A DNA stretch of 28,808 bases from positions 1 through 28,808 of the IMG/VR virus record IMGVR_UViG_3300031566_000277. The stretch is one strand, 5' to 3'. How positions within the stretch are numbered: the first letter of the stretch is position 1; every line of letters starts with the position of its first letter. Source of the stretch: a virus. A model generated the notes under the pieces. That model did not search any database and was not told where the DNA came from. It was given only the letters and a program-made list of their open reading frames with translations. Position numbers and translations under genes: made by a program. This document shows, in pieces, positions 10,351 to 28,808 of this stretch.

Positions 10351-11361
10351 ATGACAACGCTCGCCTGCGATTACGCCAGTCTGGTCAACGAGGTGGGCTT
10401 CCACCTGTTCGGGCTGCGCCCCAAGACGGCCGATGTGATTACGGACGCCGTGGCCAGCGCCAACCAGGCGACCGACATCCTGCGGTCCATCGCCAAGGGG
10501 CTCCAATTCATCTACTCCGCTCATCGCTGGTCGTTCTTGCGTCCGCTGGTCACGGTCACCACCCATCCCGCGTACCACACGGGCACGATCACCGTTGACG
10601 CCGATGGGAACGTGACTGGGACGGACACCGTGTTTCCGGACTATTCGGCCTCGGCTTCAGGATGGCTCACGATCCCCAGCGTGGGCTCGTTTGCCGTGAA
10701 GACCTACACGAGCGGTACGGAGCTGGTCCTGACAGACTACACGGGCGGCGCCGTTACGAGTGCGTCGACGTTCACCCTTGGCTTCAACACCTACCCGCTA
10801 CCAGCCGGTGTGGACAGCCTGGAGGGACGCCTGACGTTCGCGCAAGGCATCGACTGCCCCTCCCGGCCCCTGACCAGGGTTCCAGAGGTCGATATTCGCC
10901 GTCTCCTGAGTCAAAGCAACACGCCCGGCAGGCCCGGGATGTATGCGGAGACGACTCAGACCTTCGACGCCACGGCCGGCTCCACGCGGTTCGTCACGTT
11001 CTGGCCGGTGCCTGATCTGGAGTACATCTTAACGGCGGTCGGGACGCTTCGACCGTCCATGATAACCAGCACGAACAAGTACCCGCTGGGGATCGAGGTC
11101 TTGGCGCCCTGCATTTCCGAATCGTGCCTTGCGTCTGCGGAGAGGAACGTCCAGGGCAAGGACGCCGGCCACCAGGACGCCGTTCACAACCGGGCCCTGG
11201 CGCCGCTTCTGGCCATGGCGATTCAGCGGGACAAGGAGTACAGCAGCCCGGAGAGCCTGGGGGTCGACCACGGGCAGGACAGCGTGTCCCTCGGACCCGA
11301 ACGCTTCCGTAGCGGCCAAATTTACTGGGCCGGCGGCTGCGACTACGAAGGTTACCTGTAA
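10351..11361 (+). CDS. head-tail adaptor / connector protein
   Basis: This 336-residue protein starts at an ATG with GGAGTTGGAGGAAAC upstream. Near the N-terminus, after a helix, it carries LQFIYSAHRWSFLRPL (residues 51-66). The aromatic, Trp-Ser-Phe-Leu-Arg-Pro pattern recurs in phage proteins sitting between portal and nozzle. A beta-rich domain (about 65-155, Thr/Gly-rich) then precedes a helical C-terminal part (LAPLLAMAIQRDKEYSSPES). Proteins of this type form the ring below the portal (T7 gp11-like role) and, with the nozzle, the short tail. The distance to the nozzle-like gene (about 5.8 kb) is longer than usual because fibre and enzyme genes are inserted. Confidence 0.65.
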   Translation: MTTLACDYASLVNEVGFHLFGLRPKTADVITDAVASANQATDILRSIAKGLQFIYSAHRWSFLRPLVTVTTHPAYHTGTITVDADGNVTGTDTVFPDYSASASGWLTIPSVGSFAVKTYTSGTELVLTDYTGGAVTSASTFTLGFNTYPLPAGVDSLEGRLTFAQGIDCPSRPLTRVPEVDIRRLLSQSNTPGRPGMYAETTQTFDATAGSTRFVTFWPVPDLEYILTAVGTLRPSMITSTNKYPLGIEVLAPCISESCLASAERNVQGKDAGHQDAVHNRALAPLLAMAIQRDKEYSSPESLGVDHGQDSVSLGPERFRSGQIYWAGGCDYEGYL

Positions 11362-13359: not shown

Positions 13360-14892
13360 ATGACTCGCAGCGCCATGGCAATCTGCACGCCGATCCCGTT
13401 TCGCGCCGGGACCCGGGTGCTCGAACGGATCACGGTCGAGTTCCACAGGGCCAAGCTCTCCCTGGCCAGGCCGACTTGCTTCAACTTCTGCGAGATCGTC
13501 GCGGATGGCATGGAGGTGGGCGTAGCCCGCTGCTTTGCCGTGGAGAAGGCCCTGGAGCAAGAGAGTCCGCCGGAGTTCATCTTCTGGCTGGACTACGACG
13601 TGCTTCCCAGCTTCGACGCAATGACGAAGTTGTTCTACCGCGCCCGCTGCTACCCGGAGTACGACGTCTTTGCGGGGGTCTACTGTTCGAAGGGGTCGCC
13701 GCCGGAGCCCCTGATCTACATGGAGCAGGGGGCGGGGCCGTTCTGGGACTGGGCAGTCGGCGATCTGCTGTTCGACGTTCACGGGGTCCACAGCGGCCTG
13801 ACGCTCGTGCGGACGAGCCTCTACCGGAAGATGCTCGACGAGGAGCCCGGGAAGCCCCTTTACCTGACCACGGATAACCGCAAGTTCGAGAACGGCCGGC
13901 TGCACACCCGCACCGGGACGGAGGACCTCTGGTTCTGCCGGCGGGCCTGCGACGACTTCGGCGCCAGGATCATGGTGGACACCTCCGTCCTGGCCGGGCA
14001 CATCAACAACGCCACCGGGAAAATCTTCGGGCTGTTGGACGACTCGCCGCCGATTCAGCGGAGCCACTTCATGCGAAAGCGAACAGTCCGCGAGCAATTC
14101 GATTTCCAGGTCAAGGTCAAGGACGGTCCGAACAATGTGTGCATCGTGGCCGATGATAAGGCGGGCAACTACCGATACCTGCATGCGGATGGAAAGGTGC
14201 GGTGGTGGATCGGCGGCGGCAGGGGTGCTGGTTGGTTCCAGAATGTGGATGAGGCGTCGGCCGTCCTTGCCGAGTGGAAAAGTCGTCAACCTCTCTCGGA
14301 CGAGAAGCTCGCCCTGGACATCGGCGCTGGGGCCACGCGGCGCGAATGGCCCGGCTACCGGACCTACACGACCGACATCCGGCCGGAGACCGCGCCCGAT
14401 TACGTCATGGACAGCCGCCTGCTGAACCTGCCGGACGAGGAGTTCGACCTGGTTTCGTCCTGCCACCACTTGGAGCACCTCGGCCGCTGGGACCAGGAGC
14501 GCGTGTGGGGCGAGATGGCCCGCGTGTTGAAGCCGGGCGGACGCATGGAGCACATCGTCCCGTCCTTGGAATGGGCGGCTGCCCACATCATGGACGGCCA
14601 CGCGGACGAGTCCGTCTTCAACGTCCTCTACGGCGCCCAGGAGGCCCAGGGCTATCGGCGGGAAATGAACACCCACTTCATGGGCTTCACCCGGCCCGTG
14701 GCCCGCGCGATGGCCGAGGAGGTGGCCGGACTGGTGGACGTGCAAGTCCGCGACTGGCGCGACGACGAGGCGCTGGGGCTGAACCTGGTCATCTCCGGAA
14801 ACAAGCCGGGGCCGAAGAAGCCGGGGCCGAAGAAGCCGAGGCCGAAGAAGCCGAGGCCGAAGAAGCCGAGGCCGAAGAAGCGAAAGCGGTAG
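13360..14892 (+). CDS. glycosyltransferase-methyltransferase fusion with basic repeat tail
   Basis: The 510-residue protein has two enzymatic domains. The first (about 1-235) is a GT-A-type glycosyltransferase: FIFWLDYDVLPS holds a DxD motif (Asp78-Tyr-Asp80, sugar-nucleotide and metal binding), and TEDLWFCRRACDDFGARIMV followed by DTSVLAGH matches the acceptor-side ED...C...G...H pattern. The second (about 315-480) is a class I SAM methyltransferase: LALDIGAGATRREWPG (motif I), FDLVSSCHHLEHLGRWD, then EMARVLKPGGRMEHIV. A linker of about 70 residues lies between. The end (482-510) is five KP(G/R)PK units plus KRKR, strongly basic and possibly DNA- or virion-binding. The ribosome-binding site is GAAGGAGG. 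The likely role is glycosylation and methylation of virion or host surface glycans. Confidence 0.8.
   Translation: MTRSAMAICTPIPFRAGTRVLERITVEFHRAKLSLARPTCFNFCEIVADGMEVGVARCFAVEKALEQESPPEFIFWLDYDVLPSFDAMTKLFYRARCYPEYDVFAGVYCSKGSPPEPLIYMEQGAGPFWDWAVGDLLFDVHGVHSGLTLVRTSLYRKMLDEEPGKPLYLTTDNRKFENGRLHTRTGTEDLWFCRRACDDFGARIMVDTSVLAGHINNATGKIFGLLDDSPPIQRSHFMRKRTVREQFDFQVKVKDGPNNVCIVADDKAGNYRYLHADGKVRWWIGGGRGAGWFQNVDEASAVLAEWKSRQPLSDEKLALDIGAGATRREWPGYRTYTTDIRPETAPDYVMDSRLLNLPDEEFDLVSSCHHLEHLGRWDQERVWGEMARVLKPGGRMEHIVPSLEWAAAHIMDGHADESVFNVLYGAQEAQGYRREMNTHFMGFTRPVARAMAEEVAGLVDVQVRDWRDDEALGLNLVISGNKPGPKKPGPKKPRPKKPRPKKPRPKKRKR
14803..14877 (+). repeat. five 15-base tandem repeats encoding a KP(G/R)PK tail
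   Basis: Five copies of AAGCCGRGGCCGAAG run head to tail (R is G in the first two units and A in the last three) and end in a KRKR codon run before the stop. The repeat number is likely to vary by slippage, which would change the length of the basic tail without breaking the frame. Confidence 0.9.
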
Positions 14893-15028: not shown

Positions 15029-17131
15029 ATGGCGTGGCTGACCGGATACACATACCGAAAAAAGATCACGACGCAGTTTGTGAACGTGGACGATACGCTC
15101 GCCGACTTTCCGATCCTTGTTCGCTTCGATGACGACGCCGACTTGGCTGATGCCCTGGCTACCGGGTTTGACATCCGCTTCACTCAGTCCGATGGCGAGA
15201 CGCTTCTGAAGTACGAGCGGCAGTCGTGGTCCGGTGGCGGCGCCTCCAACGTCACGGCCATCTTCTGGGTAAAGATACCCTCGATCTCCGCCGTCGCTGG
15301 CACCGAGTTCTATGTCTACTGGAAGAAGTCTGACGCCGGCGACGGTGAAGACGCGCCCAACGTGTGGGATTCCAACTTCAAGGGAGTCTGGCACCTAGAA
15401 GACCTCACCGACTCGACGGGCAATAGCCATGACTTGACCGCAGTTAATGGTCCGACCAGTGGACAGACCGGGAAGGTTGGGAACTGCTACCTGTTCAACG
15501 ACGCGGACATCGAGTACCTGACGATTGCCGAGAACTGCGACATTGGAGCCAACGGGTTTCCTTGCACAATCTCTACGTGGTGCAAGACCGACGTGGACAG
15601 CATACTGGAGGTGCTGGCGTCTTTGCAGAATACCAGCGCAGGAATCCAGCGCCATTTGCATTATCTGGCTGGACACGCCGGTGGAGACCCTGCCCGCATC
15701 CTCAGTGGTACTTCAGCCTACGCCAACACCACCACCGGGTTCTCCACAAACACTTGGCACCACATTACAACCATGGTTGCCGCCGCAAACAGCCGTGCCG
15801 TGTTCATCGACGGTGGGAGCAAAGGCACTAATACTGGCTCGTTAACACCGACCGGGATCGACAGGTTTTCCATCGGGTCCAGTGGGAATTCTGCTGACTA
15901 CTCTCCGTTCTCGGGCTACATCGACGAGGTCAGGCTCAGCAATATCGTTCGCTCCGACGCATGGATTCACTTCGAGTTTCACAACATCGCCGAGGCCGAC
16001 CACGAGCTGGACTGGGGCACCAAGGAGTCGTCCGGCGGAGAGACCCACGAAGTTCCGGTCTCCGATTCGCTTGGTGCAACGGACGCACTGGGCATCTCGG
16101 CGGGCAAGGCACGTTCGCTTGCTGCTACGGCCGGTCTCGATGATGCCATCTCCTTCGCGGCTGCGTCCTGTCGGGGGCTCTCCGAAGCGTCCGGCCTGAG
16201 CGATGCCGTCCAGGTTGCGGTCGCCCGCCCGTTGCTGGTCGGCGACACGGCCGGGATCGCCGACAGCGCTTCTGCTTCTTTGGCAGGCGTGCACTCGCGC
16301 CAACTGAGCGACACGGCCGGGCTGTCCGACAGCGTCGCGAGGGCGGTCGCCCACAGCCGGCTTGTGGTGGACACGGCCGGTCTGGCGGATGACTGTTTCG
16401 TTTCGGTTACGGCGGGCGGAGAGACCTACGAAGCCGAGGGCGACGGCACCCTGGGTGCCACGGATAACCTCGCCGTGGCGTGCGTGGCGGCGCGCGTAAC
16501 GGGCGACACGGCGGGCATCGGTGATTCGGTCAGTGTCGCCGTCGCACGGGCGGTTGTGGTCAGCGATGCCGCCGGTCTGGCGGACGCGGCGTCGCGCTCC
16601 GTCGTCGCGTGTCGGCAGGTAACGGACGACCTGGGCGCTTCCGATGCCCTGTCTCCGGCGGCCGGTCACGCCTGCTCCGTGAGCGACGATCTGGGTGCCA
16701 CGGATGCCACGGCTGCCGCCGCCGCCCGCGCCCGGTTGATCGCGGATGCGTTCGGGGCCTCGGACGGTGCCGATGCAGCGATCCTCTTCGCGCGGCTGAT
16801 TCAGGACAGCGCCGGGCTGAGCGACAGCGCGGCCCGGATCGCGGCTTTTCGGCGGACCCTCATCGAGACGGCAGGACTGGCGGACAATGTAGACCTCGCG
16901 AGCAAGCATCTCAGGCAGACTGCCGATACGGCGGGGTTGGGCGATTTCCTGAAGGTGGTGCTGAACGCGAAGTTGGCAGAGACGGCCGACACACTCGGGG
17001 CCTCGGACGCCGTCATCGTACAGCGGTTCATCGGCATTTCCACGCTATCCCCGACCTTCAAGCAGCGCCACCACATCCGTTACGCACACAGGCGGTGCGT
17101 GACGGCCAGGCGGACCAAGACCATCGTGTAG
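15029..17131 (+). CDS. tail fibre / adhesin: DUF2341 + LamG-like + DTAGLSD-type repeats
   Basis: This 700-residue protein has three parts. Residues 1-105 match the DUF2341 pattern: WLTGYTYRKKITTQFVNV, then ADFPILVRFDDDADLADALA, GFDIRFTQSDGETLLKYE and EFYVYWKKSD. Residues 119-325 look like a LamG/concanavalin-like sandwich (GVWHLEDLTDSTGNSHDLT, then NTWHHITTMV and GYIDEVRLSNIVRSDAWIHF). Residues 342-667 are about 16 repeats of 18-25 residues built on D(T/S/D)(A/L)G(L/A/I)xD, with Val/Ala-rich strands between. The end is Arg/His-rich. DUF2341 and LamG are common in surface and fibre proteins, and the repeats look like a shaft. This is probably a receptor-binding fibre or host-surface adhesin. 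Confidence 0.75.
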   Translation: MAWLTGYTYRKKITTQFVNVDDTLADFPILVRFDDDADLADALATGFDIRFTQSDGETLLKYERQSWSGGGASNVTAIFWVKIPSISAVAGTEFYVYWKKSDAGDGEDAPNVWDSNFKGVWHLEDLTDSTGNSHDLTAVNGPTSGQTGKVGNCYLFNDADIEYLTIAENCDIGANGFPCTISTWCKTDVDSILEVLASLQNTSAGIQRHLHYLAGHAGGDPARILSGTSAYANTTTGFSTNTWHHITTMVAAANSRAVFIDGGSKGTNTGSLTPTGIDRFSIGSSGNSADYSPFSGYIDEVRLSNIVRSDAWIHFEFHNIAEADHELDWGTKESSGGETHEVPVSDSLGATDALGISAGKARSLAATAGLDDAISFAAASCRGLSEASGLSDAVQVAVARPLLVGDTAGIADSASASLAGVHSRQLSDTAGLSDSVARAVAHSRLVVDTAGLADDCFVSVTAGGETYEAEGDGTLGATDNLAVACVAARVTGDTAGIGDSVSVAVARAVVVSDAAGLADAASRSVVACRQVTDDLGASDALSPAAGHACSVSDDLGATDATAAAAARARLIADAFGASDGADAAILFARLIQDSAGLSDSAARIAAFRRTLIETAGLADNVDLASKHLRQTADTAGLGDFLKVVLNAKLAETADTLGASDAVIVQRFIGISTLSPTFKQRHHIRYAHRRCVTARRTKTIV
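16052..17029 (+). repeat. about 16 degenerate repeats (~54-75 bases each) in the fibre gene
   Basis: Repeats centre on codons for DTAGLxD, DxLGAxD or close variants, spaced mostly 19-22 residues apart, each followed by an Ala/Val-rich stretch ending in Arg or similar. The DNA copies differ widely while the protein motif is kept, so these are old, selected repeats and not recent slippage. Confidence 0.85.
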
Positions 17132-21551: not shown

Positions 21552-22274
21552 ATGGTGTCTTTGTATCAACGCAGAGATCAGGCATGGGAGGGCTACCGCC
21601 GCACGGCGATCGGCAGTCCCTCCTGGGAGGCGTATCGCCAGACGGCCGAGGCGAACCGCGCCCATCTGGAGGCGGTGACAAGCAGAAACTGGGCCCGGCG
21701 CCAGCAGAAGGAAGCCGCGCGCCAGCAGAGGGAAGCCGCGGAGGCGGAGAGGCGCCGGGCTGAGCAGGCGTACCGTTACCAGGCGGCCCTCTCCGCTCAA
21801 GAAGCGCAGCAGGGGGCCGAGCGCGACGCCGCCCGGTTCCAGCACGACGACGAGCTCTTCGAGCGCCAGCGGGCCGGCCGATTGGCAGAACAGCAACTCG
21901 CCCAGCTCCAGCAAGAGAAGATGGCTCGGATGGAGGCCGGACAACAGGAGGCGCGCGACGTTCGCCTCGGAGGGTTGGAGGAGGCCAGGGACTACCGGCT
22001 GGCCGACATTCAGGGGCAGCGCGACGTTTCGCAGGCCGGGCTCCAAGAGGCCAGGGACGTTCGTCTTGATGAGATGGAGGGTGCCCGCGATGTGCGTCTC
22101 GGCGTCATGGACCAAGCCACACGCGAATCGCAACAGACTTTCCAGGAAGAGGAAGCGGCCAAGGGCAGGCGCTTCGATGTTCGCAAGACGCTGTTTGAAG
22201 CGGGCCAACAGGCAGCCCGAGACACGCGCCTGGAAGGGTTCGCCCAGCGGAGGATCACGGGAGCAGCGGTTTGA
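21552..22274 (+). CDS. coiled-coil internal virion protein, N-terminal part (frame shifts near the end)
   Basis: The 240-residue frame begins at an ATG five bases after the previous stop. Almost the whole product is coiled coil. It has a 7-residue RQQ(K/R)EAA duplication (bases 21699-21740) and an 11-residue repeat with RD at residues 135, 146, 157, 168, 179 and again at 223, a hendecad coiled coil. The frame stops at 22272-22274 (TGA), yet the +1 frame continues the same coiled-coil character to 23301. Reading both as one gives a protein of about 582 residues. So this is either the front half of a frameshifted gene or, less likely, a complete short protein. Internal core or ejection function is inferred from composition and position. 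Confidence 0.7.
   Translation: MVSLYQRRDQAWEGYRRTAIGSPSWEAYRQTAEANRAHLEAVTSRNWARRQQKEAARQQREAAEAERRRAEQAYRYQAALSAQEAQQGAERDAARFQHDDELFERQRAGRLAEQQLAQLQQEKMARMEAGQQEARDVRLGGLEEARDYRLADIQGQRDVSQAGLQEARDVRLDEMEGARDVRLGVMDQATRESQQTFQEEEAAKGRRFDVRKTLFEAGQQAARDTRLEGFAQRRITGAAV
21699..22115 (+). repeat. 7-residue duplication and 11-residue hendecad repeats in the coiled-coil gene
   Basis: Bases 21699-21719 and 21720-21740 are 21-base near-identical tandem units. From 21951 to about 22115 a 33-base period places an ARDVRL-like core every 11 residues five times. An 11-residue period marks a coiled coil with altered supercoil. Confidence 0.8.
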
Positions 22275-23301
22275 AACTGAGCAGGCGGCCTTGGAGCGCG
22301 AGCAACAAGAGGCCGACATCGTGGAGAGAATGAGGCACGAGACCGCCCTTGCCGACATGGCCCAGCGCGGCCACGAAGCCATTCAGGAGATCATCGAGCG
22401 CAGACAGAATCGCATGCTGGATGCACGCTATGACCAGGAGGCCGACCTCCTGAGGACGCGGATGGATGCCGAGAAGGATCAGATCATTTCGCTGGGGCTT
22501 TCCGAGGGAACGCTGCGCCTTCCGGGGGGCGTCAAGGAACGGCTGGATGCCAATGAGCAGGCCGCCACCAGGATCGCCTCAAGCCCGTATATGTCCGAGC
22601 AGCAGCGCGAGGACGCCCTGAAGCAGATTCAAGAGAAAAACGTGGCCCTGCGACGGCTGGCAATCCCAATTCCGCAGGAGGAGAGAGCGCAGAGCATGGA
22701 AGCTGAGAAGCAGCGTCTTATTGCAGAGCTGCCGGCCGGGATGCGCGCCTTTCCCTGGCAGTTCGACCCCAAGAGCCGGACCTTGCAAGTCGCGCGCGGC
22801 TACAAGCCTCCCGAGCCTCCGCTCGAGATTCCCGAGGATCCGCTCCAGGAATTGCGCCAGCGAGTCATCACGGACGAGACAGGCCAGCGATGGATCGTGA
22901 CTCCCAAGCGGGGCGCCCCTCCCGACCTCAAAGCGGTGCCTCCACCCAAGGAGGAGAAGGAAGAGAAACCCGCGACTCCCGAGAAGCGCCTCGCTACCGC
23001 CGCCGCCTTTCGCAAGGAGGTGGATGCGCGGCTGGAGGAGAGGGTCGCAGCGGCGATGATCGCGCTTAAGGCTTCCGCGAAAAAAAAGTTGTCGGAGGAG
23101 CAACTGGCGGAGTCCGAGCGCGTCTACGCCGAGCACTTCCGCCCCGAAGTGCAGCGCGAGGTTTGGCAAAGGATGTATCCCGAGCAGGCGGGCGACGGGC
23201 AAGGCGGGGCTGGGCAGGCGCCGGGTTGGCCGCCCGGTGCAATCCTCAATGAGGACGGCACGGTCACCTACAAGGAGAAGCGCTACAGGAAGGGCTTCTA
23301 A
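22258..23301 (+). CDS. coiled-coil internal virion protein, C-terminal part in the +1 frame
   Basis: From 22258 the +1 frame reads REQRFETEQAALEREQQEAD and stays charged and helical (for example ERMRHETALADMAQRG) to a TAA at 23299-23301. A Pro-rich section follows around residue 180 of this part (GYKPPEPPLEIPEDP), and the ending is AILNEDGTVTYKEKRYRKGF. Removing one A at 22257 would join the frames as QRRIREQRF without disturbing the coil. If it is a separate gene, GTG at 22321 with AGAGG eight bases upstream, or ATG at 22330, are candidate starts. Its last base overlaps the giant gene start (TAATG). Internal virion function is inferred. Confidence 0.65.
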   Translation, partial: REQRFETEQAALEREQQEADIVERMRHETALADMAQRGHEAIQEIIERRQNRMLDARYDQEADLLRTRMDAEKDQIISLGLSEGTLRLPGGVKERLDANEQAATRIASSPYMSEQQREDALKQIQEKNVALRRLAIPIPQEERAQSMEAEKQRLIAELPAGMRAFPWQFDPKSRTLQVARGYKPPEPPLEIPEDPLQELRQRVITDETGQRWIVTPKRGAPPDLKAVPPPKEEKEEKPATPEKRLATAAAFRKEVDARLEERVAAAMIALKASAKKKLSEEQLAESERVYAEHFRPEVQREVWQRMYPEQAGDGQGGAGQAPGWPPGAILNEDGTVTYKEKRYRKGF

Positions 23302-26300
23302 TGCCACGCACCTCCCAGATACCGGCTGGCTGGCTTCCGGTCACCGAGGATCAGGCCGAGGACATTCCGGCCGGCTGGGTTCCGGTTGAGTCCGAGCCGA
23401 GTGTGGAGGACTACGACTATGCTGGCGCGAGAAAGGCCGGTATTAAGCCGGGTCCGAACGGACACTGGCCCGACACCTACAAACTGCCGAATCACATCAC
23501 GTTCAGTAAGGACAGCAAGTATTCCACTGACGAAACACCCGGAGGAACTTGGGCCAAGGACCCGAAGGGGAACTGGTCGTACACGCCATCGGACTTCGTG
23601 TTGTCGCAGCATTCGCCTGATGAGTTGGAGGCGTATTTCAAGGCTCACGAGCCTGATGCACGTTTGGTAATGCCATGGAGCCCGGAGGGTCGTATCCGCA
23701 GCTTTGCCTCACAGCTTGATCCGCAGAGCGCCGCCTGGCTGCGGGGCAACCTTGAGGCCGTCAAGGAGGAGGTGGGTGAGAAGTTTCCCGCGCTGCCCGC
23801 CTTGCCGGGCGAACCCGGACACGACCCGAAGGCGTTTCCGCAGCAGTGGGTTGACTGGTCCAAAAAATTTGAGCCGATCGGACAGGCCCTCCAGGGGCGG
23901 CTTGATGAAGAGGAGGAGGAGAACGAGCGAAAACGACGCGAAGAATGGGAGCGCCATGTGGCGAGAAAGAGAAAGCTGCGCCCGATCGCTAAGGTCTTTG
24001 CCGGCAGTCCAGCCCTGGGTGTAGCTGAACACGTTGCCGCCGCGGAAATTGCGCCCGAGGACCGGGCGGCGTTCTTGGATGTCGCCCGGGAGGAGTACGC
24101 CAAGACGCGGGCCCAAGAGAAAGCGGGCTTCGGCCCGCGGCTTGGCACTTCGATCGTCCAGGGCGTCTTCGACTTCGGTATGCCGCTTGCCAAGATGGTC
24201 AGTAAGGCGGTTGGTGGGCCACTCAAGGGGCTTGACCGAGATCAGGAGATCTTTCGTCAACAACTGCTGGCCGTGCGGGAGCACGAAGACCCTACAATTC
24301 GAGAAGACACGCCGTGGATTGGCCGGACGGCTCAAAAGGCCGGCCGGATGACGGTTCCGATGGTGCAGAGCGTCGGGCTCGGCCGGGCAATGGGCGGCGC
24401 AGCGAGCGGACTTGGTGCAACGCAGCGCGGCGTGCGTGTCGCGCAATCCATAGGCGTGTCCGGATCTTTCCTCCCGCAAATCGCGGACAACACATACAGC
24501 TCGCTTATCGCAGAAGGTGTTGAGCCGCGCCGGGCCCAGCTCATCACGGCTGTCAGTGCTCCGATCGAGGCGGCGGTGGAATCCATCCTGCCAGACCCTT
24601 TCGCCGGCTACGGACGGACGGCCGGCGCGACAATTCGGCAGATGGCGGCACAGAACATCAAGCGATTCACCGTCAACTACACCAAGGAGCTGGCGGAGGA
24701 GGGCATTCAGGGCGTCATCAACGAGACGGCGATGGAAGTGGGCCGCCGACTCGACGAGGACATTCCCAACAAGGGGCTGGGAAACATCCTCATGCGCGGG
24801 CTGGAGGATATGAAAGAGGCGGCGGGGCCGCTCGGGCTGATGATGGCGCCAGGCGCGATGGCCAGCATGGTGGAGAAGGTCGAGGCTCAGGACGGCGTGC
24901 CGTCGCGTGCCGACGCCGACGCGCTCAAAATGTCGCCCGAGGAAGCGAGAAACCGAGAGACCCGGAAACGGGCCTGGGATGAGAAATTCAAACAACCGCT
25001 CAAGAGGTACGTCGATGCCCTCAAAAAGCAAAAGGCAGGCGCGCCTGATGGCGGCGGCGGCGCACGACCCGAAGTTCGCGAAGACGGTGGGCGTCCCCCG
25101 GAAGGTGGCGCAGGAGTTCAACCGGGCGGACTCGGGGACCGGGGTCTTGAAAGGCCACCGCAAGAAGGGGAAGGCCCGGGAGAAGCCCCGCCGGCGACGG
25201 AAGAAGCTCTCGGGCAGCCAGCGGATCGCCCGGAGGATGCCGGCCTAGGCGCTCCTACGTCGCCGCCTGGGGCCGCCGCGGTGGCGGGAGGCCCCGGGGC
25301 CCGGTCGATCCAGAACGCCTACACGGAGCAGCGTAGGGCTGATTTGGGGATGGCACCCCGGACGCCCCCCGGACATAGGGGCTGGCCCGTCGCCCAGGCA
25401 GAGGCCGCCGCCGCTACGGACGCCGAGGTGACGAATCTGGTCGACCGGCTTCGGGCGAAGCCGGAGGCGGTCGGGGACACCGAAGACTTTATGCTGCTGC
25501 GGCGGCTGAACGAGATCGAGAATCGGCACACCGAGGCCCTGGGCCGTGGCGACGCCGGCGCAGCAGCGGCGGCCGAAACCGAGTTGGCCGACATCTACGA
25601 CGTGTCGGAGCGAGTCGGGACGCCCCAGGGAAGAGGGCTGGCCGCCCGGAAGGCGTGGATCGCGGAGGACGACTCTCTGCTCGGAGTTCTGCGGCGGGGA
25701 GTGAAAGCGAAGAAGGCTCCCCTGACGGAGGGCGAGCGGGAAAGCCTGACCAAACTGGCGGGGGAGGTGGCCGATCTGAAGGCTGAACTCGCCCAGTACG
25801 ACCAAGACCACATCAACGATGAGATCGACCGCCAGATCGCCGAGACCACGGCCAAACGCCGAGCGACGATCGAGAGCCGCTTCGAGCAGCAGTACGACAC
25901 CGCGCACGAGTACGGGATTGATCCGAAGGAGCTGCGCGAGCGGGCCAAGGATCGCGCAGAAGCGGATGCGGGGCCCATCCGAGACTATAACGAATCCTAC
26001 CGTGCGGCCGTCCAGGCGACCGGACTCACCCCCGCAAAGATACGCGACATTGAAGAGGGCCGGCTTTTCGAGGGGGGCAAGGCGGTCAACCTCGCCGAGT
26101 ACGGTGGCCTGGACACCAAGGCCCCGATTCTGGCCCGAGAGTATCCGGCCCTGGGAATCCGTTCTGAGCCCGGCGACGTGCAGCAGACGCTCGACACCGC
26201 GCAGGCACTTGTCGAGGTGTTGAAGGACGGCCCCAAGCGCCTCCCCGAGTGGCACGACAAGCTGGACGAGGTTGCGCGGGAAATGGCGGCCGAGAGCGGG

Positions 26301-28808
26301 AAGGAACTTCCCGACGACTTCAGTCTCCAACGCGAGCCGGCGGACAGCTTTGACTGGGAGACCGGAGAGGACATCCCACCGCCCGGGAAGAAGAGCCTGG
26401 CGAAGAAGCCGCGCGTCACCGCCAAGGAGAAGGCTGCCAAAGCCAGGGTCCGGGTACAAACGGCCGTCGCGTCTCTTAAAGAGTCCTTCGCGGCACTCAA
26501 ACAGGTCGGGGCCGTCTTCGACCCGATGGCAGAGGCCGAGAAACAAGTGAAGTTCCTCGCCGATCTGCGCGAGGTCGGCCTGGCCTACGTCGAGTTGGGC
26601 GTTCGCAGTTTCAATGCGGCCGTCGCCCGGCTGGCTGCCGATCTGGGGCACATGAGCGAGGGCCTCCGGAGACACTTCGAGGGGGAGTGGCGCAACCTCT
26701 TGGGCGAAGGCATGGTGCGGTCGCCCGTGCGCGACCCCAGCGACACGAACGAACTCGGCAGATACGCCAGGAAGATCACGCGCTGGGTCGTCGAATCCGG
26801 AGTCCAGGATCGAGAGGCGGTCGTCGATGAGGTCCACCGCGAGCTGGAGACCGTGAAGCCCGGGATCACGCGCCGTGAAGCGATGGATGCAATGTCCGGC
26901 TACGGCGACTTCAAGGAGCTTACCAAAGACGAGATCAGCAAGACGGTACGCGCGATCAAGGGCCAGTTGCAGCAGTTGGCAAAGGTCCAGGACTTGCAGA
27001 GCGCGATCGCCGAATCGAAGAAGTGGCTGGCCTCCGGAATGAGCCCGGAGGAGGCAGCCCGCAAGCTGGAAGAATCGGGGTTGCTGCCGAAGAAGACGGG
27101 CTTTGAGCGCCGCACGCCGGACGACATCGAGCGGCAGTTGATCGCCCAGGTCAACGAGCTGAAGAAAGAGGTCCCGGTGTCGGTAGAGGCGGGTGAAGGA
27201 CAACTGAAGAGCGCCCTGGATGCCGCCAAGACGGCGGTCCGCAACCGGATCACGGACCTGGAGCAAGAGATCGCCACGCGGGAGAAGATCGTCAAGACGC
27301 GGACCACGCTGAAGCCTGACGTGGAGTTGACGGCCCTACGCAAACAGCGAAATCAGTTGTGGGAGGCGCACAACAAAATCTTCCCGCGCACGAAAAAGAC
27401 CGTCACACCCGAACAGCAGTTGGCGGCAACGGGCCGCGCTCTTGACCGTGCCATTGACCAGTTGGCAGCCGAGCTGGAGGCAGGCAGGATCGGACGGAAG
27501 CCGCTCTTGCCGCGTCGCACGAGCCCCGAGATCGAGGCCAAGCGTTCCAAGCTGGAAGGCCTGCGCGCCCAGCGAGAAGAGCTGCGCACGCACGATCCCG
27601 CCTACCAGGCGAGCGAAGACGCACGGCTGCTGGCGGCCAAGAAGCGAGAACTCACTGGGCGTCTGGCCGAGTTGGAGGACCGGCTGGCTCGCAAGGACTT
27701 CGCCAAGAAGCCGCTACGCAGGACGCCGGAAGACGCGGAGAGCCTGGCGATGCGGCATAAGGTTGACGCGGCGCGGAAGAAGGTACGCGCCGAAGTGGAT
27801 AAGATCGCGCGGGCGAACCGTCCGACGTGGAAGAAGGCGCTGGGGGTTCCCGTCGAGGTCGCCAGGGCCATCAAGAGCATATGGGCTTCCATCGACTTCT
27901 CCGCTCTTGGCCGCCAGGGAGGCTGGCTTGCCGCCTCGCACCCGATCAAAGCGGCGCGGGCCCAAGCGAGGTCCTTTCGCGCCGCCCTGTCCGACAAGGA
28001 AGCCTTCGCCATCATGGAAGGCATCTCGTTACGCCCGAACGCGAAGTCTGGGCTCTATGAGCGAGCGGGACTTGAACTCACGGACATCAGCGGCGCCATC
28101 GTCTCAAGGGAAGAGATGTACCAGTCAACATGGGCCGAGCACATTCCCATTGTCAAGTATGGCGTGAAGGCTTCAGAGAGGGCCTACGTCTCCCAACTCA
28201 ATCAGCAGCGTGCGGACGTGTTCGATGCCATGGTCGCGACTATGACTCGCGATCCAGCGAACGTGACAGACGCTGAGGCAAGGGTCATCGCCAACTACGT
28301 CAACGTCGCGAGCTGGCGTGGCGACGTGGGACGGTACGAGCAGGCCGCCGCAAGTCTCGGGGCCGTGCTCTGGACGCCCCGCGGATACGTCTCGCGGTTC
28401 GAGCTGCTAATCGGGCAGCCCCTCTGGAAAGACGCGGGGAAGGCGTCCTGGCGCGTGCGCAGGGTAATTGCGCGGGAGTACGGCAGGTCTCTGGCGGGTC
28501 TCTCGGTGTTCTACGCCACCGCTGCTGCATTTCTCTACGCGACCTTCGGCCCCCCATCGGACGACGAGGAGGGCTGGTCGATTTCCCTAGATCCCTACTC
28601 GGCAGACCTTGGCAAGTTCCGGTTTGGCCCCACGCGAATTGATCCTTTGGGCGGCCTATCGCAAACGGCCAGATTGATGACGAGGCTCTCTACGAACACG
28701 ATCAACGGTCTCCGCCAGGCGATGGGGGGGGAAGTTACCAAGGAGGGCAAGGCGGAAATGAAGCAGAGCTTGCCAGTCGTCGGCAGGTTCCTCAAAGCGA
28801 AGCTCGCT
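23301..28808 (+). CDS. giant polyvalent-type internal virion protein with LPD38-like C-terminus, cut by the window edge
   Basis: From an ATG overlapping the previous stop (TAATG), one frame stays open for 1836 codons to the window edge; the end is not seen. Residues 7-30 repeat IPAGW(L/V)PV. Residues 37-115 hold a domain met in many large phage proteins (DYDYAGARKAGIKPGPNGHW, PDTYKLPNHITFSKDSKYS). Residues about 335-540 are hydrophobic-helical (SFLPQIADNTYSSLIAEG; IEAAVESILPDPFAGYG). A Gly/Pro linker spans 575-675, then mostly charged coiled coil to about 1500. From about 1525 (IDFSALGRQGGWLAASHP ... YVSRFELLIGQPLW, a TM-like segment at 1730-1750, then DPYSADLGKFRFGPTRIDPL) it resembles LPD38 of polyvalent proteins. 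It is likely packaged in the capsid and ejected into the host. Confidence 0.8.
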   Translation, partial: MPRTSQIPAGWLPVTEDQAEDIPAGWVPVESEPSVEDYDYAGARKAGIKPGPNGHWPDTYKLPNHITFSKDSKYSTDETPGGTWAKDPKGNWSYTPSDFVLSQHSPDELEAYFKAHEPDARLVMPWSPEGRIRSFASQLDPQSAAWLRGNLEAVKEEVGEKFPALPALPGEPGHDPKAFPQQWVDWSKKFEPIGQALQGRLDEEEEENERKRREEWERHVARKRKLRPIAKVFAGSPALGVAEHVAAAEIAPEDRAAFLDVAREEYAKTRAQEKAGFGPRLGTSIVQGVFDFGMPLAKMVSKAVGGPLKGLDRDQEIFRQQLLAVREHEDPTIREDTPWIGRTAQKAGRMTVPMVQSVGLGRAMGGAASGLGATQRGVRVAQSIGVSGSFLPQIADNTYSSLIAEGVEPRRAQLITAVSAPIEAAVESILPDPFAGYGRTAGATIRQMAAQNIKRFTVNYTKELAEEGIQGVINETAMEVGRRLDEDIPNKGLGNILMRGLEDMKEAAGPLGLMMAPGAMASMVEKVEAQDGVPSRADADALKMSPEEARNRETRKRAWDEKFKQPLKRYVDALKKQKAGAPDGGGGARPEVREDGGRPPEGGAGVQPGGLGDRGLERPPQEGEGPGEAPPATEEALGQPADRPEDAGLGAPTSPPGAAAVAGGPGARSIQNAYTEQRRADLGMAPRTPPGHRGWPVAQAEAAAATDAEVTNLVDRLRAKPEAVGDTEDFMLLRRLNEIENRHTEALGRGDAGAAAAAETELADIYDVSERVGTPQGRGLAARKAWIAEDDSLLGVLRRGVKAKKAPLTEGERESLTKLAGEVADLKAELAQYDQDHINDEIDRQIAETTAKRRATIESRFEQQYDTAHEYGIDPKELRERAKDRAEADAGPIRDYNESYRAAVQATGLTPAKIRDIEEGRLFEGGKAVNLAEYGGLDTKAPILAREYPALGIRSEPGDVQQTLDTAQALVEVLKDGPKRLPEWHDKLDEVAREMAAESGKELPDDFSLQREPADSFDWETGEDIPPPGKKSLAKKPRVTAKEKAAKARVRVQTAVASLKESFAALKQVGAVFDPMAEAEKQVKFLADLREVGLAYVELGVRSFNAAVARLAADLGHMSEGLRRHFEGEWRNLLGEGMVRSPVRDPSDTNELGRYARKITRWVVESGVQDREAVVDEVHRELETVKPGITRREAMDAMSGYGDFKELTKDEISKTVRAIKGQLQQLAKVQDLQSAIAESKKWLASGMSPEEAARKLEESGLLPKKTGFERRTPDDIERQLIAQVNELKKEVPVSVEAGEGQLKSALDAAKTAVRNRITDLEQEIATREKIVKTRTTLKPDVELTALRKQRNQLWEAHNKIFPRTKKTVTPEQQLAATGRALDRAIDQLAAELEAGRIGRKPLLPRRTSPEIEAKRSKLEGLRAQREELRTHDPAYQASEDARLLAAKKRELTGRLAELEDRLARKDFAKKPLRRTPEDAESLAMRHKVDAARKKVRAEVDKIARANRPTWKKALGVPVEVARAIKSIWASIDFSALGRQGGWLAASHPIKAARAQARSFRAALSDKEAFAIMEGISLRPNAKSGLYERAGLELTDISGAIVSREEMYQSTWAEHIPIVKYGVKASERAYVSQLNQQRADVFDAMVATMTRDPANVTDAEARVIANYVNVASWRGDVGRYEQAAASLGAVLWTPRGYVSRFELLIGQPLWKDAGKASWRVRRVIAREYGRSLAGLSVFYATAAAFLYATFGPPSDDEEGWSISLDPYSADLGKFRFGPTRIDPLGGLSQTARLMTRLSTNTINGLRQAMGGEVTKEGKAEMKQSLPVVGRFLKAKLA

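Follow-up and report, generated by a model that had tools for sequence, protein, structure and literature searches.

Phage polyvalent proteins are very large and modular; they are encoded among late virion genes and are likely packaged (Iyer et al. 2017, PMC5512222). For ejection operons, the gene order gp14, gp15, gp16 has been described (PMC8954989). T7 gp16 and comparable third-gene ejection proteins are the last and largest products of such clusters (609–1337 aa), with a hydrophobic segment in the C-terminal part. In phage phiEco32, gp26 (1473 aa) is a giant last gene behind the ejection proteins. Short terminal peptides can direct loading. The first 10 residues of T4 IPIII suffice for entry into the head (PMC9026906). 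Encapsulin shells, which have the HK97 fold, are described as possessing a dedicated cargo-loading mechanism (PMC8346489).

We analysed a complete IMG/VR virus record, IMGVR_UViG_3300031566_000277, of 28,808 bases (hereafter, the window). Its last gene resembles polyvalent proteins in its great size, modularity and late-gene neighbourhood. Furthermore, relatives of the gene contain a PBECR3 domain, a helicase or LPD38; its N-terminal module occurs elsewhere with ddrB-ParB. Gene order and the adaptor place it among late virion genes. However, in the window's copy no polyvalent domain was recognised. The mark of polyvalent proteins, a single polypeptide with at least two domains that differ in activity, is found instead in the relatives G018, G022 and G014. 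Like T7 gp16, the gene is the last and largest of a gp14-gp15-gp16-like cluster (labels by position) and encodes a hydrophobic segment in its C-terminal part. Conversely, it has no detectable homology to gp16, has no transglycosylase domain and is larger (at least 1836 aa). The gene order around phiEco32 gp26 is comparable, but gp26 has no profile similarity to the window protein, no homology between the two was found and the gp26 N-terminus has no tandem copies. Comparison of sequence and structure with T7 gp16, phiEco32 gp26 and any solved ejection protein gave no match; such proteins diverge fast and our models have mean pLDDT values of about 60.

We consider it probable that the gene product is a giant protein inside the virion of a short-tailed phage, occupying the place of T7 gp16. 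It would be loaded into the head, be ejected with the DNA and act as a delivery chassis, with an enzyme slot between two conserved regions, domain H and core M. In the window this slot is empty. Judged by its sequence, the protein is a new family, with no Pfam, PHROG or NCBIfam matches, within a known kind of protein.

The reading frame is uninterrupted from the ATG at position 23301 to the last base. The sequence is the whole record, and the frame therefore ends with it; position 28,808 is open because the contig itself stops there. Shuffling the window 100 times under a Markov model gave stop-free runs of at most 570 codons, compared with 1836 observed. GC content at the three codon positions is 0.68/0.48/0.77 and is coding-like in every 200-codon block. 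A ribosome-binding site precedes the start codon, which is overlapped by the stop of the preceding gene (TAATG). Homologues are also encoded without internal stops. The giant frame reported in the initial annotation is thus borne out: 23301–28808 is one real gene, cut by the contig end. Alignment with complete relatives predicts that some 80–190 further C-terminal residues are missing. Coordinates of all features are listed in Table 1.

Table 1. Features of the giant gene and of neighbouring late genes in the window.
Feature	Position	Strand	Evidence
SU10-type adaptor (neck protein of short-tailed phages)	10354..11361	+	55–78% to a G002 protein matching SU10_adaptor PF24175 (37 bits)
gp14-position gene, 174 aa	21022..21546	+	kept at the same position in G006, G008 and G010
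Coiled-coil gene at the gp15 position, broken by a frame change	21552..23301	+	single frame in relatives
AGGAAGG ribosome-binding site	23287..23293	+	sequence; seven bases before the start
Giant ORF, 1836 codons, open at contig end	23301..28808	+	frame and stop-free homologues
Peptide copy 1, IPAGWLPV, aa 7–14	23319..23342	+	repeat score and codons
Peptide copy 2, IPAGWVPV, aa 22–29	23364..23387	+	repeat score and codons
HWPDTYKLPNH module, aa 37–129, mobile between phage virion proteins	23409..23687	+	69–71% to G008, 58% to G023; 36 IMG/VR loci
Helical Gly/Ala-rich domain H, aa ~258–560	24072..24980	+	matches G003, G005, G010, G014 and G023; model
Conserved linker motif, aa 588–613, ARPEVREDGGRPPEGGAGVQPGG	25062..25139	+	46–68% identity to relatives differing elsewhere
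Cargo slot, aa 614–668, empty here	25140..25304	+	PBECR3 or helicase at the same place in relatives
Helical core M, aa 669–1520, coiled-coil rich	25305..27860	+	segment BLASTP; model
C-terminal module, aa 1521–1836+	27861..28808	+	64% to G018, 41% to G019

The giant gene is the last in the late cluster visible here, behind the gp14- and gp15-position genes. As with the portal, these names reflect position. The SU10-type adaptor points to a short-tailed phage. Near 22245–22275 the gp15-position gene changes frame, and homology to relatives runs on both sides; a sequencing error, a mutation or a programmed shift could account for this. In L031 and L073 the products at the gp15 position end in GPDGK-Y-KKG just before the giant gene, and the window has NEDGTVTYKEKRYRKGF near position 23260. 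Directly 3' of the giant gene, a conserved gene trio is present in G002 (L028:8365-10957), G005, G006, G008, G010 and G013; the window stops short of this region. The trio consists of DDAH/amidinotransferase-like, PAD_porph/agmatine-deiminase-like and phosphatidylserine-decarboxylase-like genes. Two frames of the tail region are also of note. The first (13360–14892) has a methyltransferase domain in its second half (PF08241, 39.8 bits) and a Pro/Lys repeat at its end. The second (15029–17131) combines DUF2341 with a concanavalin-type lectin domain; an Ala/Asp-rich repeat comes next.

Searches of the giant protein against Pfam, PHROGs, NCBIfam, named phages, plasmids and the PDB gave no convincing match. 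Relatives were reached afterwards, via the portal-position gene (675–2465), which has kin in IMG/VR contigs and a Planctomycetaceae MAG. The giant gene has no internal stop in G003, G008, G002, G006, G018, G013, G014, G019, G020, G022 or G023. Among the other phage contigs and the Planctomycetaceae MAG contig, the shortest frame has 1020 codons and the longest 3281. That MAG contig, G018, has a frame of 1822 codons that is open at either end. The very start of the G022 protein is encoded in a different frame, and this gene may contain a frameshift. Relatives of the portal-position and giant genes lie on L042 and L072, which are Planctomycetaceae MAG contigs; this is a host lead or a binning error. 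Phages with this protein family may infect planctomycetes. A family invisible to Pfam, PHROG and NCBIfam profiles is brought into view.

To define module borders we used BLASTP of protein segments against the relatives. By this measure, the protein is a mosaic of peptide repeats, HWPDTYK module, domain H, linker, cargo slot, core M and C-terminal module. The N-terminal HWPDTYKLPNH-type domain of the initial annotation is present but lies at residues 37–129, not 1–120; segment BLASTP left it unmatched in G003, G002 and G006. Domain H is the part most widely common among relatives. It includes the region 335–540, previously called hydrophobic and membrane-active. Here hydrophobicity is weak (best 19-residue hydropathy window 1.27, at 412–430), and the region is better described as a conserved Gly/Ala-rich helical domain. 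Core M is common to G018, G003, G002, G006, G008, G020 and G022, and partly to G019. Composition and an all-helical model of low confidence support long helices or the coiled coil named in the initial annotation. The C-terminal module is additionally present in G020, G003 and G022; G006 and G008 have a different end, common to those two. A TM-like segment expected in this part proved borderline (residues 1731–1749, positions 28491–28547, mean hydropathy 1.56).

The LPD38-like end that had been proposed fails. The Pfam profile (PF18857) matched neither the window protein nor most relatives, while the same search gave 81 bits in G014, a positive control; in G013 the score was 16 bits, below the threshold. 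Comparison of six C-terminal modules with LPD38 by hhalign returned a probability of 0.4%, from three LPD38 sequences only and so with limited sensitivity. We rejected LPD38 membership on these two tests. The C-terminal module may nonetheless play a similar part.

Between linker and core, the window's protein has only about 55 Gly/Pro-rich residues. At this place G018 encodes a PBECR3 nuclease (71.7 bits, cut-off 30) and G022 a ResIII-type helicase (ResIII/Helicase_C region; 30.8 bits, cut-off 22.5). Enzymes between polyvalent domains, as first suggested, are therefore found in relatives but not in the window's copy, where Pfam, PHROGs and NCBIfam recognised no enzymatic domain. In the relative in L072, the PBECR3 segment covers aa 461–580. 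By eye, G022 also has a ParB-like stretch. The more distant G014 has domain H alone in common and carries LPD38 (75.8 bits; 81 bits in the search above) with a HEIGHH motif. The 2657-aa relative at L074:5753-13723 has LPD38 and HEIGHH, and the MPTase-PolyVal profile did not match it. We do not claim HEIGHH in G014 as a domain, nor an ART suggested by visual inspection of G020; the ART-PolyVal and MPTase-PolyVal profiles matched no relative examined. The relatives form a natural series, in which one apparent delivery chassis is empty or holds different enzymes. This series shows a cargo insertion site in proteins that are probably injected.

The initial annotation saw a polyvalent protein and a candidate for an ejected internal protein. 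This stands in part. The modular architecture is of polyvalent type and the position is late. Modules M and C are joined to PBECR3 in G018 and to ResIII/Helicase_C in G022, domain H is joined to LPD38 and HEIGHH in G014, and other module fusions involve peptidoglycan hydrolases and ddrB-ParB. What is not supported is LPD38 and the idea of a hidden enzyme. From gene position, adaptor type, modular homology and the cargo of relatives, we infer the following course. The protein would be loaded into the head, perhaps through its N-terminal peptides, and would leave it along with the DNA. On the path through the envelope, domain H and the C-terminal segment may touch membranes. The slot between H and M holds different enzymes in different relatives.

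Three other explanations were weighed. If the protein were a polyvalent effector, an undetected enzyme in residues 680–1500 would act on the host after injection. Relatives do carry enzymes, and many phage enzymes lie beyond Pfam. However, core M occurs in close relatives with or without recognised cargo, and neither its sequence nor its fold, taken from a low-confidence model, found a match in the PDB. Structure prediction of residues 680–1500, which had been suggested as a check, gave an almost wholly helical AlphaFold2 model with no alpha/beta fold (mean pLDDT 60.6). The long middle thus appears as a conserved all-helical core. Helices also dominate the N-terminal model (mean pLDDT 60.4). 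Neither model gave a reliable fold match; the one BFVD match, to an unnamed protein, had an E-value of 2.6e-4 and TM-scores were 0.10 or less. Because model confidence is low, we go no further than to call a hidden enzyme in the core, and an effector of this kind, unlikely.

Tail tape-measure proteins are long helical rods that determine the length of the tail and are ejected. Length, helicity and a hydrophobic stretch would all suit such a role, and tape-measure proteins are among the weak top Foldseek matches of our models, though with E-values that are not significant. The SU10-type adaptor argues against it. So do the absence of distal tail genes downstream, where six relatives have metabolic enzyme genes, and the spread in length of the relatives (1020 to 3281 codons), which have enzyme inserts. 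We regard this role as highly improbable. Little credence is due, too, to a decaying or fragmentary gene in a phage that has lost cargo and function. An empty slot, and the frame change in the gene upstream, are what decay would produce; 1836 stop-free codons with normal codon-position bias throughout are not, and G019 has an intact gene that likewise lacks recognised cargo. We favour an ejected delivery chassis. Since the slot is empty here, the protein is probably for ejection or channel formation, not for enzymatic attack.

The most interesting part of the finding is the peptide repeats. In the window, two IPAGW copies are spaced by 15 residues, with a score reached by none of 200 shuffles and none of 28 internal control windows. 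Most relatives start with two or three near-identical copies of a peptide of 7–15 aa, and the motif is wholly different between phages. Those found in two or three copies are WWESRSEPV (G003), TIPPPPDGSGIVMPQ (G002), DPWDAFPD (G005), DWLDEFPV (G010), PLTIDDFP (G020), WAPPEDA (G006 and G013) and P-GWE (G022). Copies of LPEWLSATP flank the HWPDTYK module on both sides in G008. Three copies of W-DAPVV, recognised by motif and missed by the 60-residue test, flank it likewise in G023. Support for repeats is weak in G014 and G019. Within the available sequence of each genome, no motif was found elsewhere.

We surveyed all collected loci, with close copies removed, for N-terminal repeats at p up to 0.02. 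The sample is biased toward the giant-protein family and module carriers. Of 30 frames with 900 codons or more, 13 had a significant repeat; the counts were 17 of 414 for frames below that length and 4 of 185 for internal windows. Such repeats are not universal: they are absent from phiEco32 gp26, N4 vRNAP, phiKMV gp37 and LUZ24 gp50. A Vibrio phage polyvalent protein has them. In 14 peptide pairs, chosen for peptide likeness, the same codon is used at 45 of 101 identical residues, about the level of random choice; the informative point is that codons are randomised. The copies are therefore old, and the peptide itself is maintained.

These properties suggest a putative multivalent docking or capsid-loading tag. 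Tentatively, and with less confidence than the delivery role itself, we propose an undescribed class of loading tag. In this proposal, a multivalent short linear motif would dock giant internal proteins to a cognate partner (portal, core or capsid interior). Tag and partner would co-diversify at a pace that leaves almost every phage with a motif of its own, with copies alike within a protein. The closest known parallels are the capsid targeting sequence of T4 and the cargo-loading peptides of encapsulins, which are likewise short and terminal. However, the peptides here are tandem and unrelated in sequence between phages, and their role as a loading tag is putative. We know of no description of such tandem N-terminal repeats. 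A literature search found none, which does not by itself prove novelty. If true, the proposal would explain how giant internal proteins enter phage heads, and a simple fusion test is possible.

The HWPDTYK module occurs in 36 IMG/VR loci, as an N-terminal or internal part of other large proteins or as short genes of about 100–240 codons. Large carriers have glucosaminidase with NlpC/P60, tail lysozyme or ddrB-ParB. With gene names assigned by eye, the stand-alone gene directly follows the portal-position gene in L084 and L086 and overlaps its end; in L092 and L111 its neighbours are a transglycosylase-like gene on one side and a giant gene of 1968 aa on the other. These gene fusions and neighbours tie the module, by association, to head and ejection functions. 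The giant gene beside the stand-alone module has three N-terminal peptide copies.
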